Shown piece by piece: positions 5,213 through 55,594 of a DNA stretch of 64,000 nt. How positions within the stretch are numbered: position 1 is the stretch's first letter; every line of letters starts with the position of its first letter. Below the pieces are notes generated by a model, which searched no databases, was not told the origin of the DNA, and saw only the letters and a program-made list of their open reading frames with translations. Source of the DNA: Clostridium pasteurianum (lineage in GTDB: Bacteria > Bacillota > Clostridia > Clostridiales > Clostridiaceae). The position numbers were made by a program, and so were the translations under genes. The stretch spans positions 806,001 through 870,000 of the forward strand of contig NZ_MCGV01000001.1 of NCBI RefSeq assembly GCF_001705235.1. Direction: 5' to 3'.

Positions 5213-5592
5213 TGTTTCACCCCCCTTGATGAAATATACTTTACATTATTTTATACTGTAAATAAAGTTTCATTTTACCTCTAAAAAGGTTAATTTATAC
5301 CCTTTGCTCTAATTTAGCTTGTCTTTAGTGTTCAACCTTATTATATCATGGTTTTTCGCCTTTTTATAAATTTAATATTTTATTATATATTTCATTAAAA
5401 TTTTTTAGTAAAATATTTCCGCATTGTGTAACCATTTACTAAAATAAATACAAGTTGATTAAAAGTTCATATTTCCTTGCTGACGTAACAATGTTATGTT
5501 ACGCTGTATGTATGATAACAATAAATTGCACTTGCTTATTATATTATTTATTGTCAAATAAAAGATATTATCTCATAGAAAGGAAATATAAA
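5213..5592. other. Divergent promoter region between nfeD and the MFS gene
   Basis: This 380-bp AT-rich spacer separates two divergent units. The open frame before 5593 continues from 5455 but has no ribosome binding site and resembles no transporter N-terminus, so I treat it as untranslated leader. No riboswitch or clear operator is seen. Confidence 0.4.
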
Positions 5593-47832: not shown

Positions 47833-48829
47833 TTATAAATTTGCTAGATATTTACCTACATGACGGCCAAATGTCATGGATCTTCCTGCTGCAACCCCTG
47901 GAGTTAGTTCTGGATAAGAATATGCAAAGAAACCACCACTATCATTTCCAACTGCAAATAGACCTTTAATTGGTTCCATATTTTTATCTAATATCTGCAT
48001 ATTTGTATTAATTCTCAGTCCATCTAATGTACACAATAAATTTCCTCCAACCGTTATACCATAAAATGGTACCTTAGCAATTGGTCTCATACGAAAAGCT
48101 GCCTTTCGAAAATCTTTATCCTCTCCCTTTTCACATAGCTCATTATAATGTGTTATAGTTGCCTTTAAAGTTTCAGGAGGAAGCATTAATTTTTGAGCAA
48201 GCTCTTCAATTGTGTTTGCCTGCTGCATATAACCATCTTTTAATAATTTTTCATTCATTACCTCTATAATTTTTGTATTAAAATTACATGGATGTTTTTC
48301 ATTATCTTTAGGAAGTACAACTCGTGAACAACCAATTGTATGAAATTTAAGCACATCTTCCATCCAATTTGAATCGAATATAGAGCACCATACTTTGCCT
48401 GGCTGCATACTAGCAGCATGTACACAAAAATCATATGGAACTGATTCATTTGTATAACGCTCACCAAATTTATTTACTTTAAGAAATGGCTGGCTACCTA
48501 GCCAAAACATTTTACCTTCAAATGGTTCTCCCGCTTCTTTTCCTGGTTTTACTGCCCCTCTATCAAAGATCATAACAGTTGGAATAGGATCCATTAAAGC
48601 TCCTATTTCTTTAACAACTTTAATTTCATCTCCCGTTACGCCCGGAGTTAATGGAAATGATGTTATATTAGATGCAGCAGTTGGATTTAATCCCTTTAAT
48701 AACTTTAGCACCATTTTGGGCTGCTGTTAAGGCTGTAATAATGCCTACAGTACCTCCACCACATACAACTATTTCTGTTTCAATTGTCTTTGTAATTGTT
48801 AGTTCTTTATTTTCTATTCTCTTATTCAT
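47833..48829 (-). pseudogene. FAD-dependent (fumarate-reductase/flavocytochrome-like) gene with internal deletion and frameshift
   Basis: From ATG 48829 (after GGAGGC) the frame gives the FAD-binding start TEIVVCGGGTVGIITALTAA up to NGAKV. It then meets a different frame coding NPTAASNITSFPLTPGVTGD and the whole C-terminal half, ending YSYPELTPGVAAGRSMTFG at 47833. About 150-200 residues normally between these parts are missing. The residual 293-aa frame has no start signal of its own. A MarR-type palindrome lies 75 bp upstream of the start. Confidence 0.78.
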
Positions 48830-53036: not shown

Positions 53037-53065
53037 TTAACATATAAACTAATTAGTGGTATAAT
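53037..53065 (+). promoter_or_regulatory. Sigma-A promoter of the quorum-sensing regulator
   Basis: TTAACA (53037-53042) and TATAAT (53060-53065) with a 17-bp spacer. An in-frame ATG at 53064 lies inside the -10 and is not a start; the ATG at 53106 is. Confidence 0.75.
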
Positions 53066-53105
53066 GAATGTAAGTAAAATATTTTACAGGTTGGGAGTTT
53101 TAAGC

Positions 53106-54413
53106 ATGGGAAGAAGTTATGAAATAATAACTATTGGCACAAAACTTAAAAACTTAAGGCAAAAATACAATGTGAGGCAAGACGACCTGACAGGCGGTGA
53201 AATAACTAGAAACCTTATAAGTCAAATAGAACATGATAAGGCAAATCTCACTAAAAATGCTGCTGAAATTATATTAAAAAACTTAAATAAAATTTGCGAT
53301 AAAAAACATATATCAGTTGATGAAAGCATAGAATATTTAATGGAAGATGAAAAATCGCAAGCTACTAAAATATTGGACAAATACATAAAAGAACTTAAAG
53401 ATCTTACAGTATATAAAGATGGTAGTTTTGTTAGTAAATTAAATGCAGCTGAAAAATTTTTAATTACATGGGACTTTAATGATAAAAAAATCTCAATATT
53501 TGAATTAGCTGGAGATTATTTTTGCAGTATCAATGATTTTTATAAAAGTTCAATGTACTATGAAAAAGCTAAATCTTTAATAAATATGGACATGTCTATT
53601 AATAATACAATTCCTATTTTGAGAAAACTATCAATGGTATACTTTTATATGGGTAAATATGAAGATGATATAAAATGCTGTGATTTTTCAATAAATCATT
53701 TTAACAATATGGATGAAGAATATTATTGTATTTTCCTTTATAATAGTGCATTATGCTATATAAACTTAAAACAATATGATCTAGCTTTAGAAAGATTTAA
53801 TAAAATTGAACCTATATTAGAAAAAATTGATATGAACAAATATTACGATGTACTTATTCAAAAAGCTGTTTGTTTTGCAGACCTTAAACAATACAAAAAG
53901 AGCTTAAATTTATATTATAAAGTAATAGATTTTATTAAAGAAAATAATCCTGAAAAATACATTATAATTTTAATTAATTTATCTGATATTTACATAGATC
54001 TTTCTGATTATGATAAAGCAAGAGAAAATTTGGACTTAATGCTCAAGAACAGAAAGTATCTAAATGAAGATTTTGTTTACTTACCTGAGGTTTATTCAGA
54101 AATAGGTAAACTATACAAAAAACTAAATGAATACGAAAATTCAGAAGAATATTATTTACAAGCTTTAAAATATACAAAAAAATCAATGCGATATTATTTG
54201 GAATATGATATTTTATCTAAATTAGTAGACATATACACATGTACTAATAATCATGAAAAAGTTTTAGATACCATGAATGAGTTTTTTATTCTTTCAGGTA
54301 AAGAAGGAAAAATTAATTCATCTATTAAATATAAATTAATAGAATTTTATTTAAACACAGAAGACATACAAGCACTTAAAGAAATGTATAATTTCTGTAA
54401 AAAATTTGGGTAA
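53106..54413 (+). CDS. XRE-HTH and TPR regulator of RRNPP type (QsrR-like)
   Basis: The 435-aa protein has an N-terminal XRE HTH (IGTKLKNLRQKYNVRQDDLTG ... LISQIEHDKANLT, about residues 7-65) and then about nine TPR motifs (for example FYKSSMYYEKAKSL, YDLALERFNKIEPIL, YENSEEYYLQALKYTK). This is the architecture of RRNPP regulators that bind short linear peptides taken up by the cell. GGGAG at 53093-53097 and the promoter fix the start. A 39-aa peptide gene follows 26 bp downstream, as in the Qss systems of solventogenic clostridia. Confidence 0.9.
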   Translation: MGRSYEIITIGTKLKNLRQKYNVRQDDLTGGEITRNLISQIEHDKANLTKNAAEIILKNLNKICDKKHISVDESIEYLMEDEKSQATKILDKYIKELKDLTVYKDGSFVSKLNAAEKFLITWDFNDKKISIFELAGDYFCSINDFYKSSMYYEKAKSLINMDMSINNTIPILRKLSMVYFYMGKYEDDIKCCDFSINHFNNMDEEYYCIFLYNSALCYINLKQYDLALERFNKIEPILEKIDMNKYYDVLIQKAVCFADLKQYKKSLNLYYKVIDFIKENNPEKYIIILINLSDIYIDLSDYDKARENLDLMLKNRKYLNEDFVYLPEVYSEIGKLYKKLNEYENSEEYYLQALKYTKKSMRYYLEYDILSKLVDIYTCTNNHEKVLDTMNEFFILSGKEGKINSSIKYKLIEFYLNTEDIQALKEMYNFCKKFG

Positions 54414-54439
54414 AGTATATTACGAAAGGATGATTTAGC

Positions 54440-54559
54440 ATGTTTTTAAAAAAGCATAAACTTATACTCTTCAGCTTACTTTTAGGAGTATTATTTACAG
54501 GGATGTTATTTTCATTAAATTCCCCGATTATTTCACAAGTACCTCTTTGGGCTTGGTAA
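54440..54559 (+). CDS. Precursor of a quorum-sensing peptide, 39 aa
   Basis: ATG 54440 follows GAAAGGATGA. The product starts MFLKKHK and continues with a hydrophobic core LILFSLLLGVLFTGMLFSL, then the C-terminal tail NSPIISQVPLWAW. A basic end, a hydrophobic secretion signal and a short hydrophilic tail make the standard shape of RRNPP signal precursors. The mature peptide is likely cut from the last 5-13 residues. The 26-bp distance after the TPR regulator and the following terminator support a two-gene operon. The sequence of the active peptide is not known. Confidence 0.8.
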   Translation: MFLKKHKLILFSLLLGVLFTGMLFSLNSPIISQVPLWAW

Positions 54560-54610
54560 ATATGATAGCGTTACATTTTTATTCTATTTATTGATATTTT
54601 ATTGTACATA

Positions 54611-54648
54611 AAAATGCCAGGCAATACCTTATTACCTGGCTAATTTTT
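54611..54648 (+). terminator. Terminator of the quorum-sensing operon
   Basis: GCCAGGCAATA (54616-54626) pairs with TATTACCTGGC (54630-54640), followed by TAATTTTTTC. It also serves the convergent dehydrogenase gene. Confidence 0.9.
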
Positions 54649-54652
54649 TCTA

Positions 54653-55594
54653 TTATTTTATAACTCCAACTATGTTCATAAGTTTCTCGCCTTTAGCAAA
54701 TCTATCCAGATTATCAATACTTATATTAACAATTTTTCTCAAAGTCTCATCAAGATGAAAACTGCCTGATATATGAGGTGTAATAATAGCTCCTGGCATA
54801 TCCCACAATCTGTCTTCAAAAGGTAGAGGCTCAGGTTCTGTTACATCAAGTCCTGCCCCACTTATAATTCTATGTTCAAGGGCCTCGCACAAATCATCAG
54901 TATATATGGCGCTTCCCCTACCCACATTTAAAATGACCGCACTTTTCTTCATCAATTTAAACTTATCCATATTAAATAGATGGTGAGTAGCCTTAGTTCC
55001 TGGAAGAGATAACGCTACTATATCTACTTTAGGTAAGATTTCATCTAAGTGTTCCATTGTAAATAGTTCATCAAGATATTCTGGCTTTTTAGCTATATTT
55101 CTTTTAATACCTATTGTGTAACTTCCTAAAGCCTTCATTTTTCTAGCAAAATTTCCTCCAATATCACCAAGTCCAACCACTAATGTTGTACTTCCTTCTA
55201 TTGATGTAACGCTTCCTTCATCTCGCCACTCATGCTTTTTCTGATTTAAATAATATAAATTTAATTTCTTTTTAATTTCAAACAGCATGCCAAGCATATG
55301 TTCAGATATGGCAAGACCATATGCACCTCTTGCATTGGTAAGCTGTGCTCCCTCAGGAATCACTCCCCCATCAGAATATCCTTCTGTACCTACACTATTT
55401 AGCTGTAACCACTTGAGCTTTTTGCTACCTTTCACATATTTAGCTGGTACATTTCCAATAATTATATCAGCACTTTTTACAACTTCTTCACTAACTTTAC
55501 TCTTAGCTATAAAAATATATTCTGCTTCTGGCATTTTTGACTTAAGTTTTTCTTTTTCATCCTTATTTAATGGAATAACAACTAAAATCTTCAT
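54653..55594 (-). CDS. D-2-hydroxyacid dehydrogenase family protein
   Basis: The 313-aa protein has the NAD-binding loop VVGLGDIGGNFARKM (G-x-G-x-x-G), the catalytic Arg region VILNVGRGSA, the Glu in VTEPEPLPFEDRLW and the catalytic His in ITPHISGSF. The N-terminal domain is shorter than in phosphoglycerate dehydrogenase, as in 'phosphoglycerate dehydrogenase-like' enzymes (YfaW/GhrA type). The substrate is unassigned; glyoxylate/hydroxypyruvate or 2-oxo acids are possible. It starts at ATG 55594 after GAGGTG. Confidence 0.87.
   Translation of the reverse strand: MKILVVIPLNKDEKEKLKSKMPEAEYIFIAKSKVSEEVVKSADIIIGNVPAKYVKGSKKLKWLQLNSVGTEGYSDGGVIPEGAQLTNARGAYGLAISEHMLGMLFEIKKKLNLYYLNQKKHEWRDEGSVTSIEGSTTLVVGLGDIGGNFARKMKALGSYTIGIKRNIAKKPEYLDELFTMEHLDEILPKVDIVALSLPGTKATHHLFNMDKFKLMKKSAVILNVGRGSAIYTDDLCEALEHRIISGAGLDVTEPEPLPFEDRLWDMPGAIITPHISGSFHLDETLRKIVNISIDNLDRFAKGEKLMNIVGVIK

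Follow-up and report, generated by a model that had tools for sequence, protein, structure and literature searches.

We analyzed a 64,000-nucleotide stretch of the Clostridium pasteurianum contig NZ_MCGV01000001.1 (hereafter, the window), which encodes a putative quorum-sensing receptor, Qsr, and, directly behind it, a putative signal precursor, Qsp. The initial annotation had described an XRE-type regulator with tetratricopeptide repeats (TPR) that is followed 26 bp later by a tiny gene with its own ribosome binding site, and it interpreted the two as an RRNPP pair. Both open reading frames (ORFs) are present, with 26 nt between the stop of qsr and the start of qsp, and AAAGGA precedes the small gene. 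We confirm the observation, and our results support the interpretation. Judging by sequence, the two genes add a member to the Qss (Qsr/Qsp) family known from C. acetobutylicum. The features of the locus are:

53106..54413, + strand: qsr, a 435-amino-acid receptor-regulator of the Qsr family with a helix-turn-helix (HTH) domain and TPR (ORF, homology, structure model)
54440..54559, + strand: qsp, a 39-amino-acid signal precursor (ORF and leave-one-out profile)
54425..54430, + strand: AAAGGA, probable ribosome binding site of qsp (sequence; paralogs are similarly laid out)
53037..53065, + strand: putative promoter, with -35 TTAACA (53037-53042), a 17-nt spacer, and an extended -10 TATAAT (53060-53065) (11/12 matches; similar element in paralogs L003-L007)
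53070..53087, no strand: proposed operator for Qsr, GTAAGTAAAATATTTTAC (GTAA-N10-TTAC), separated from the -10 by 4 nt (shared-repeat scan and spacing control)
54536..54556, + strand: coding sequence for residues 33-39, QVPLWAW, the predicted mature core (by alignment with AEPTWGW, the active peptide of QspB; both ends are approximate)
54616..54640, no strand: putative terminator hairpin for both directions, which belongs to the qss unit and also serves the convergent gene (folding and flank comparison)

We placed the start of the receptor at 53106, which fits the paralogs; a longer frame from the ATG at 53064 is disfavored. The predicted Qsp is MFLKKHKLILFSLLLGVLFTGMLFSLNSPIISQVPLWAW.

C. acetobutylicum contains eight qsr/qsp pairs, QssA to QssH, and QssB responds to short peptides derived from its Qsp (PMC7376267). 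Synthetic AEPTWGW restores butanol and spores under QsrB overexpression (PMC7376267). Because the peptide reverses the effect of the overexpressed receptor, QsrB seems to act like a repressor that is released by its peptide. Mutants in qsrH make less butanol late (PMC7376267). Among the genomes that we compared, G001 has eight receptors, one of them cut short, and each is accompanied by a peptide. One of these peptides (at locus L036) is 50 amino acids long, and its residues 37-43 are AEPTWGW, the sequence published for QspB. We therefore take G001 to be C. acetobutylicum or a very near relative, and L036 is QssB.

RRNPP receptors are described as having about 250-500 amino acids, TPR repeats, an N-terminal HTH, and an adjacent gene for an exported propeptide (PMC10075063). 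The window pair has a receptor of this size with TPR repeats and an N-terminal HTH, and an adjacent small gene with the expected peptide layout. In Pfam, TPR_12 matches the receptor with 61.2 bits, and TPR_2, TPR_1, and TPR_8 are also over the cut-off; the structure model is all-helical. HTH_19 matches residues 11-53 with 18.7 bits, below the cut-off of 30.2, so the HTH is weak by Pfam alone. Residues 1-80 are homologous to other Qsr proteins, and the pattern TRNL.S.IE is invariant (32/32). We did not accept the fold alone as proof of RRNPP membership, because the Foldseek ranking is headed by eukaryotic TPR proteins.

The window receptor is 54-61% identical to six full-length Qsr proteins of G001 and 40-41% identical to QsrB. 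The closest is L018 on contig C1 (61%), whose peptide ends in GLPLWVW instead of QVPLWAW; from its plasmid position, we infer that L018 is QsrH (CA_P0149). The host genome (G000) encodes 14 full-length Qsr proteins including the one in the window, which shares 39-60% identity with the remaining 13. The host also has one decayed receptor fragment and one HTH-only match. (Our receptor set omits L015-L017, which are fragments or HTH only, and our receptor alignment, A2, omits L023, L029, and L038, which are cut short or have an internal stop.) A search for related loci with a single receptor as the query gave 20 pattern matches, of which none were confirmed. The same search with A2 found 17 loci: 15 are from the sister species C. 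hydrogenum and C. guangxiense, and two are weak matches in metagenome-assembled genomes, which we set aside. In the genomes of C. guangxiense and C. hydrogenum (G002 and G003), the Qsp peptides carry other tails.

The window Qsp has no match in Pfam or NCBIfam up to an E-value of 1. We built a profile from 18 related peptides with the window peptide left out and compared it to the 627 window ORFs of at least 20 amino acids. The 39-amino-acid ORF ranks first (E = 5.3e-13; the next ORF has E = 0.059), which indicates that the small gene is real. The initial annotation had named the lack of a conserved peptide in relatives as grounds to reject its reading. The reading withstands this check: a peptide is found at all eight qsr loci in G001 and, in intact form, at 11 of the 14 in the host (L013 has a decayed peptide, and L008 and L014 have none). 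When we compared a profile that includes the host peptides (A1) to the host genome (4.68 Mb: 4.486 Mb and 191 kb), scoring 150 of 248 candidates, there were 11 matches with E < 1e-11, each directly behind a receptor gene, and the next match had E = 0.17. Among 194 genomes of the family, with at most 38 candidates scored per genome, the profile for W-ended Qsp matches five: G000, G001, and G087 over its full length, and G012 and G036 only in the N-terminal part.

The initial annotation had recognized a basic start, then a hydrophobic core and a short C-terminal tail in the window peptide. The same layout recurs in all 11 intact host Qsp, which end in P-x-x-x-W. Size, basic start, and hydrophobic core would also suit a small protein that stays in the membrane, either a type I toxin-like peptide or a regulatory one. 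But it is the tail that is conserved: P35 and W39 are invariant in 18/18 aligned peptides (QspB, with its internal W, was left out), whereas the hydrophobic part varies. Furthermore, the host peptides are found only beside qsr genes, the tail and the receptor's sensor half vary together (see below), and synthetic peptides from the tail of QspB act when they are added to cultures of C. acetobutylicum (PMC7376267). We consider a resident membrane protein to be very improbable.

The window pair resembles the Qss systems of C. acetobutylicum in that a gene for a Qsp of about the same length lies behind the receptor gene, and the Qsp has a basic-hydrophobic N-terminus and C-terminal P and W; these residues, and the grouping of the receptor with Qsr by identity, place it in the Qss family. 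It differs in being chromosomal, in its tail (QVPLWAW), and in its host, which has 14 receptors, 11 of them with a peptide, instead of eight pairs. Also, a leucine that is conserved in the eight published Qsp (PMC7376267) is isoleucine in the window Qsp. By description, the QSS1-5 systems of C. saccharoperbutylacetonicum are similar: qssR and qssP form one operon, there are several paralogs, and they have roles in solvents, spores, and motility (PMC7206700). RstA of Clostridioides difficile is called an orphan by Kotte (PMC7376267). The Qsr proteins of C. acetobutylicum are less than 18% identical to NprR and PlcR of Bacillus (PMC7376267). NprR is the first structural entry for the window Qsr. 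In Bacillus, NprR-NprX and PlcR-PapR each combine an HTH-TPR regulator with a propeptide gene.

The initial annotation also linked Qss systems to solvent formation and sporulation. This fits the homology to the qsr/qsp pairs, and the solvent context is apt because the host has two adjacent CoA-transferase genes, which lie behind an adhE-like gene and face an adc-like gene (both named by resemblance). Control by this particular pair is less well founded than was stated.

The boundaries of the proposed operon were upheld in part. The promoter, TTAACA-17-TATAAT with a TG before the -10, matches the consensus at 11 of 12 positions and is kept in paralogs. But a sigma-70 scan of the region found 19 promoter-like matches, versus 20.7 in shuffled sequences, so we use the promoter call only together with its conservation. 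Similarly, the + strand terminator hairpin beats shuffles when folded alone (54605-54655; z = -3.4) but does not do so in a fold of the entire 3' stretch (54560-54655; z = -1.5). On the - strand, the hairpin is stronger and ends a convergent gene for a 2-hydroxyacid dehydrogenase, and a scan for terminator patterns calls it for that strand only. These results count against a terminator that belongs to the operon alone. The qss unit is self-contained: L001 and L003-L007 resemble each other over a stretch that starts in the -35 region, some 70 bp ahead of the start codon, and stops shortly after the terminator, and the rest of their 1.5-kb flanks do not match. (L003 and L004 are alike for about 100 bp further.)

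To find a potential operator, we searched the 14 host qsr promoters (150 bp each) for any shared 4-bp inverted repeat with a spacer of 0-14 nt. The top word was GTAA-N10-TTAC, which is found in 10/14 promoters; the best of any word in 200 shuffles reached at most 7. There are 68 such sites genome-wide, so 0.03 would be expected in these promoters. The same scan of G002 and G003 ranked the same word, with the same spacing, first (7/12 promoters; the next word reached 4, and the any-word null maximum was 6 in 300). As a control, we varied the spacing from 0 to 24: GTAA-Nk-TTAC is found at k = 10 in 19/33 promoters from these four genomes and in 8/22 promoters from other genera, and at any other k in at most two. 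(The 33 promoters are 14 from G000, 7/8 from G001, 4/5 from G002, and 8/11 from G003, without L023, L038, and three G003 receptors that lack a locus. The other-genus set is 22 of 26 loci, one per genome; L187, L191, L192, and L196 are broken or partial and were dropped.) If the 180 bp before the start codon are considered, a slightly different stretch, then 7 of the 22 other-genus regulators have a box, and three have two boxes 46-48 bp apart. By a simple filter, 19 of these 22 regulators have no peptide-like ORF.

Each of the 12 boxes in G000 and G001 starts 0-4 nt downstream of the nearest -10-like hexamer; in G002 and G003, the boxes sit at or just before the -35. We propose that GTAA-N10-TTAC is a candidate Qsr operator, with binding predicted from sequence. 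The motif of PlcR differs from this repeat. We found no published Qsr operator in the literature that we searched, and the terms "operator" and "binding site" are absent from the main text of Kotte (PMC7376267). No consensus box was defined for RstA; to the knowledge of the authors of the RstA paper in 2019, PlcR alone among RRNPP regulators had a defined motif (PMC6414698). In the window as a whole, there are three boxes versus 1.7 expected, which is not significant by itself.

The repeat overlaps in sequence with the crevar sites of the carbon regulator CcpA, which have TGTAAA and TTTACA arms with variable spacing (PMC5263246), and the published sol-20 site, with 6-nt repeats 8 nt apart, has the same geometry. 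(L132 in G001 appears to be sol-20.) Some of the boxes outside qsr promoters precede secreted glycanases, the box upstream of a host kinase (see below) is a full TGTAAA-N8-TTTACA, and so are 4/10 boxes from other genera. However, crevar spacers vary and here only a spacing of 10 stands out. In the C. acetobutylicum group, 1/19 boxes has both full arms and 6/19 keep TGTAA and TTACA on both sides; the window repeat, with TGTAAG and TTTACA, is one arm base off. The outer bases vary in this group, yet single changes in them abolished CcpA binding at sol-41 (PMC5263246). Also, the boxes recur at qsr-type genes across genera, and the box-bearing CAC0323 was unchanged by ccpA inactivation (PMC3507653). 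We judge it unlikely that the repeat is a CcpA site instead of a Qsr operator.

The two ends of the qss unit seem to evolve differently. Across 13 host receptors (L014 was left out), we asked how often identical residues have identical codons. The proportion is 0.68 for residues 5-75 (0.80 among L001 and L003-L007), versus 0.60 (0.64) for residues 201-435. Label permutation reached this contrast in 10/5000 trials, with genes that are not independent. Because silent sites are more alike at the promoter-HTH end within the host, these data point to exchange of this end among the copies. Alternatively, selection on the DNA and protein sequence alone might keep promoters and HTH domains alike, without any exchange. 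No part of the Qsr proteins is more conserved than the HTH (PMC7376267), and within G001 the contrast is small (0.58 versus 0.55). But silent sites, too, are more alike in residues 5-75 within the host, and they show no such difference between G000 and G001 (0.556 versus 0.560). We consider selection alone to be somewhat unlikely.

Across 17 loci (without L036 and L038), receptor residues 201-435 covary with the last eight columns of the peptide alignment (rho = 0.32; 3/1000 permutations), while the HTH and the peptide tail do not (rho = -0.03; 564/1000 permutations). The permutation values ignore shared descent, so these are indications. It looks as if the copies share a DNA address, with similar HTH domains and promoters, and have private signals, with sensor halves and peptide tails that vary together.

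We are quite confident that the window pair is a quorum-sensing operon of the C. acetobutylicum type and that it works roughly as follows. Qsr would be a cytoplasmic HTH-TPR regulator. Qsp would leave the cell by way of its basic-hydrophobic N-terminus and be cut down to a short C-terminal peptide comprising roughly QVPLWAW, which would then be re-imported and bind to the Qsr TPR domain; the covariation of tail and sensor is indirect support for binding. Without peptide, a Qsr dimer probably occupies GTAA-N10-TTAC where transcription starts and may repress its own operon, and the peptide would free Qsr from the operator. The peptide activity and the repressor mode are carried over from the literature on the relative QssB. 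Because paralogs keep the promoter, operator, and HTH while the TPR domain and the peptide tail diverge together, many signals probably feed one shared set of promoters, maybe including that of a CAC0323-type kinase.

In both G000 and G001, a box with a -10 just before it lies about 100 nt upstream of a histidine kinase gene. The G001 kinase has 654 amino acids with HisKA and HATPase domains and is encoded within 1 kb or so of qsrB (CAC0324). CAC0323 is described as a protein of this size with seven transmembrane helices and PAS, HisKA, and HATPase domains (PMC11210211), and its loss lowers sporulation (PMC11210211, PMC8102284). Each of the two genomes has one such kinase gene at E < 1e-25, and the two proteins are 41% identical. 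In the published account, inactivating ccpA changed only CAC3319 of three kinases (PMC3507653); as CAC0323 was unchanged, this argues against CcpA as the user of the kinase box. The box may link Qss to this sporulation kinase.

A broader proposal is that GTAA-N10-TTAC is the common Qsr operator, that about ten receptors with private peptides converge on it through an HTH-promoter module kept by recombination, and that, via the box at the CAC0323-type promoter, quorum signals reach Spo0A, sporulation, and solvents through transcription of the kinase. Several observations weigh against this. Only 2/7 qsr promoters in G001 have the exact box. In other genera the box reaches significance only if the word is fixed beforehand (at most 2 in shuffles), and a free scan would not single it out: other words occur in as many as 6 promoters, and 145/300 shuffles contain a word with 7 or more. 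The kinase box was found after the fact, the best kinase matches in G002 and G003 (31% identical) lack a promoter box, and in neither G000 nor G001 does the box with a -10 exceed a reversed-pattern control. For this last reason, we rejected the combination as a general regulon finder, and three secreted glycanase-like genes that carry a box are leads only. As a whole, we regard the proposal as tentative and more doubtful than probable.

The pair is one more member of a known family, but the concrete candidate for a Qsr operator is new. It hints at how one genome may wire many parallel signals to one DNA site, and it suggests how quorum sensing might reach a sporulation kinase, a route that can be tested and that bears on how Qss reaches solvents and sporulation in industrial clostridia.

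We also noticed several peculiarities of qss loci. L009 and L013 (G000:C1:2287956 and 2289652) are tandem units in which the second peptide gene is decayed and its receptor is open. At L011 (G000:C2), a short qsp-like start, VFHKKYKFNIRL, and a stop lie 3' of the receptor and before the intact peptide gene, as if duplicated. In another genus, L166 (G087:C37:226800-229400) encodes a W-ended Qsp-like peptide, ending in KPYYPW, behind an apparently broken receptor: one frame holds a remnant of the TPR part, and a second frame an HTH of a different XRE type. The palindrome TGAYAACGTT follows the stop of 8/11 qsp genes (L002, L005-L007, and L009-L012), within about 10 nt, or about 45 nt in L002. 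It occurs only 11 times elsewhere in the host genome. Its center is LacI/cre-like, but it has mismatches to the published cre of C. acetobutylicum, so we did not adopt it as a cre site. The window has a variant:

54563..54574, no strand: one-base variant of the palindrome TGAYAACGTT found behind qsp stops

An identical 18-bp repeat, GTAACAATGTTATGTTAC, is present at two places in the host genome, at 5485-5502 of the window and at G000:C2:110460, with the same neighboring geometry, and might be the site of another regulator. Finally, on the - strand at 47833-48829, what looks by eye like a gene for a FAD-dependent oxidoreductase seems to lie in two frames, with ORFs of 293 and 53 amino acids.
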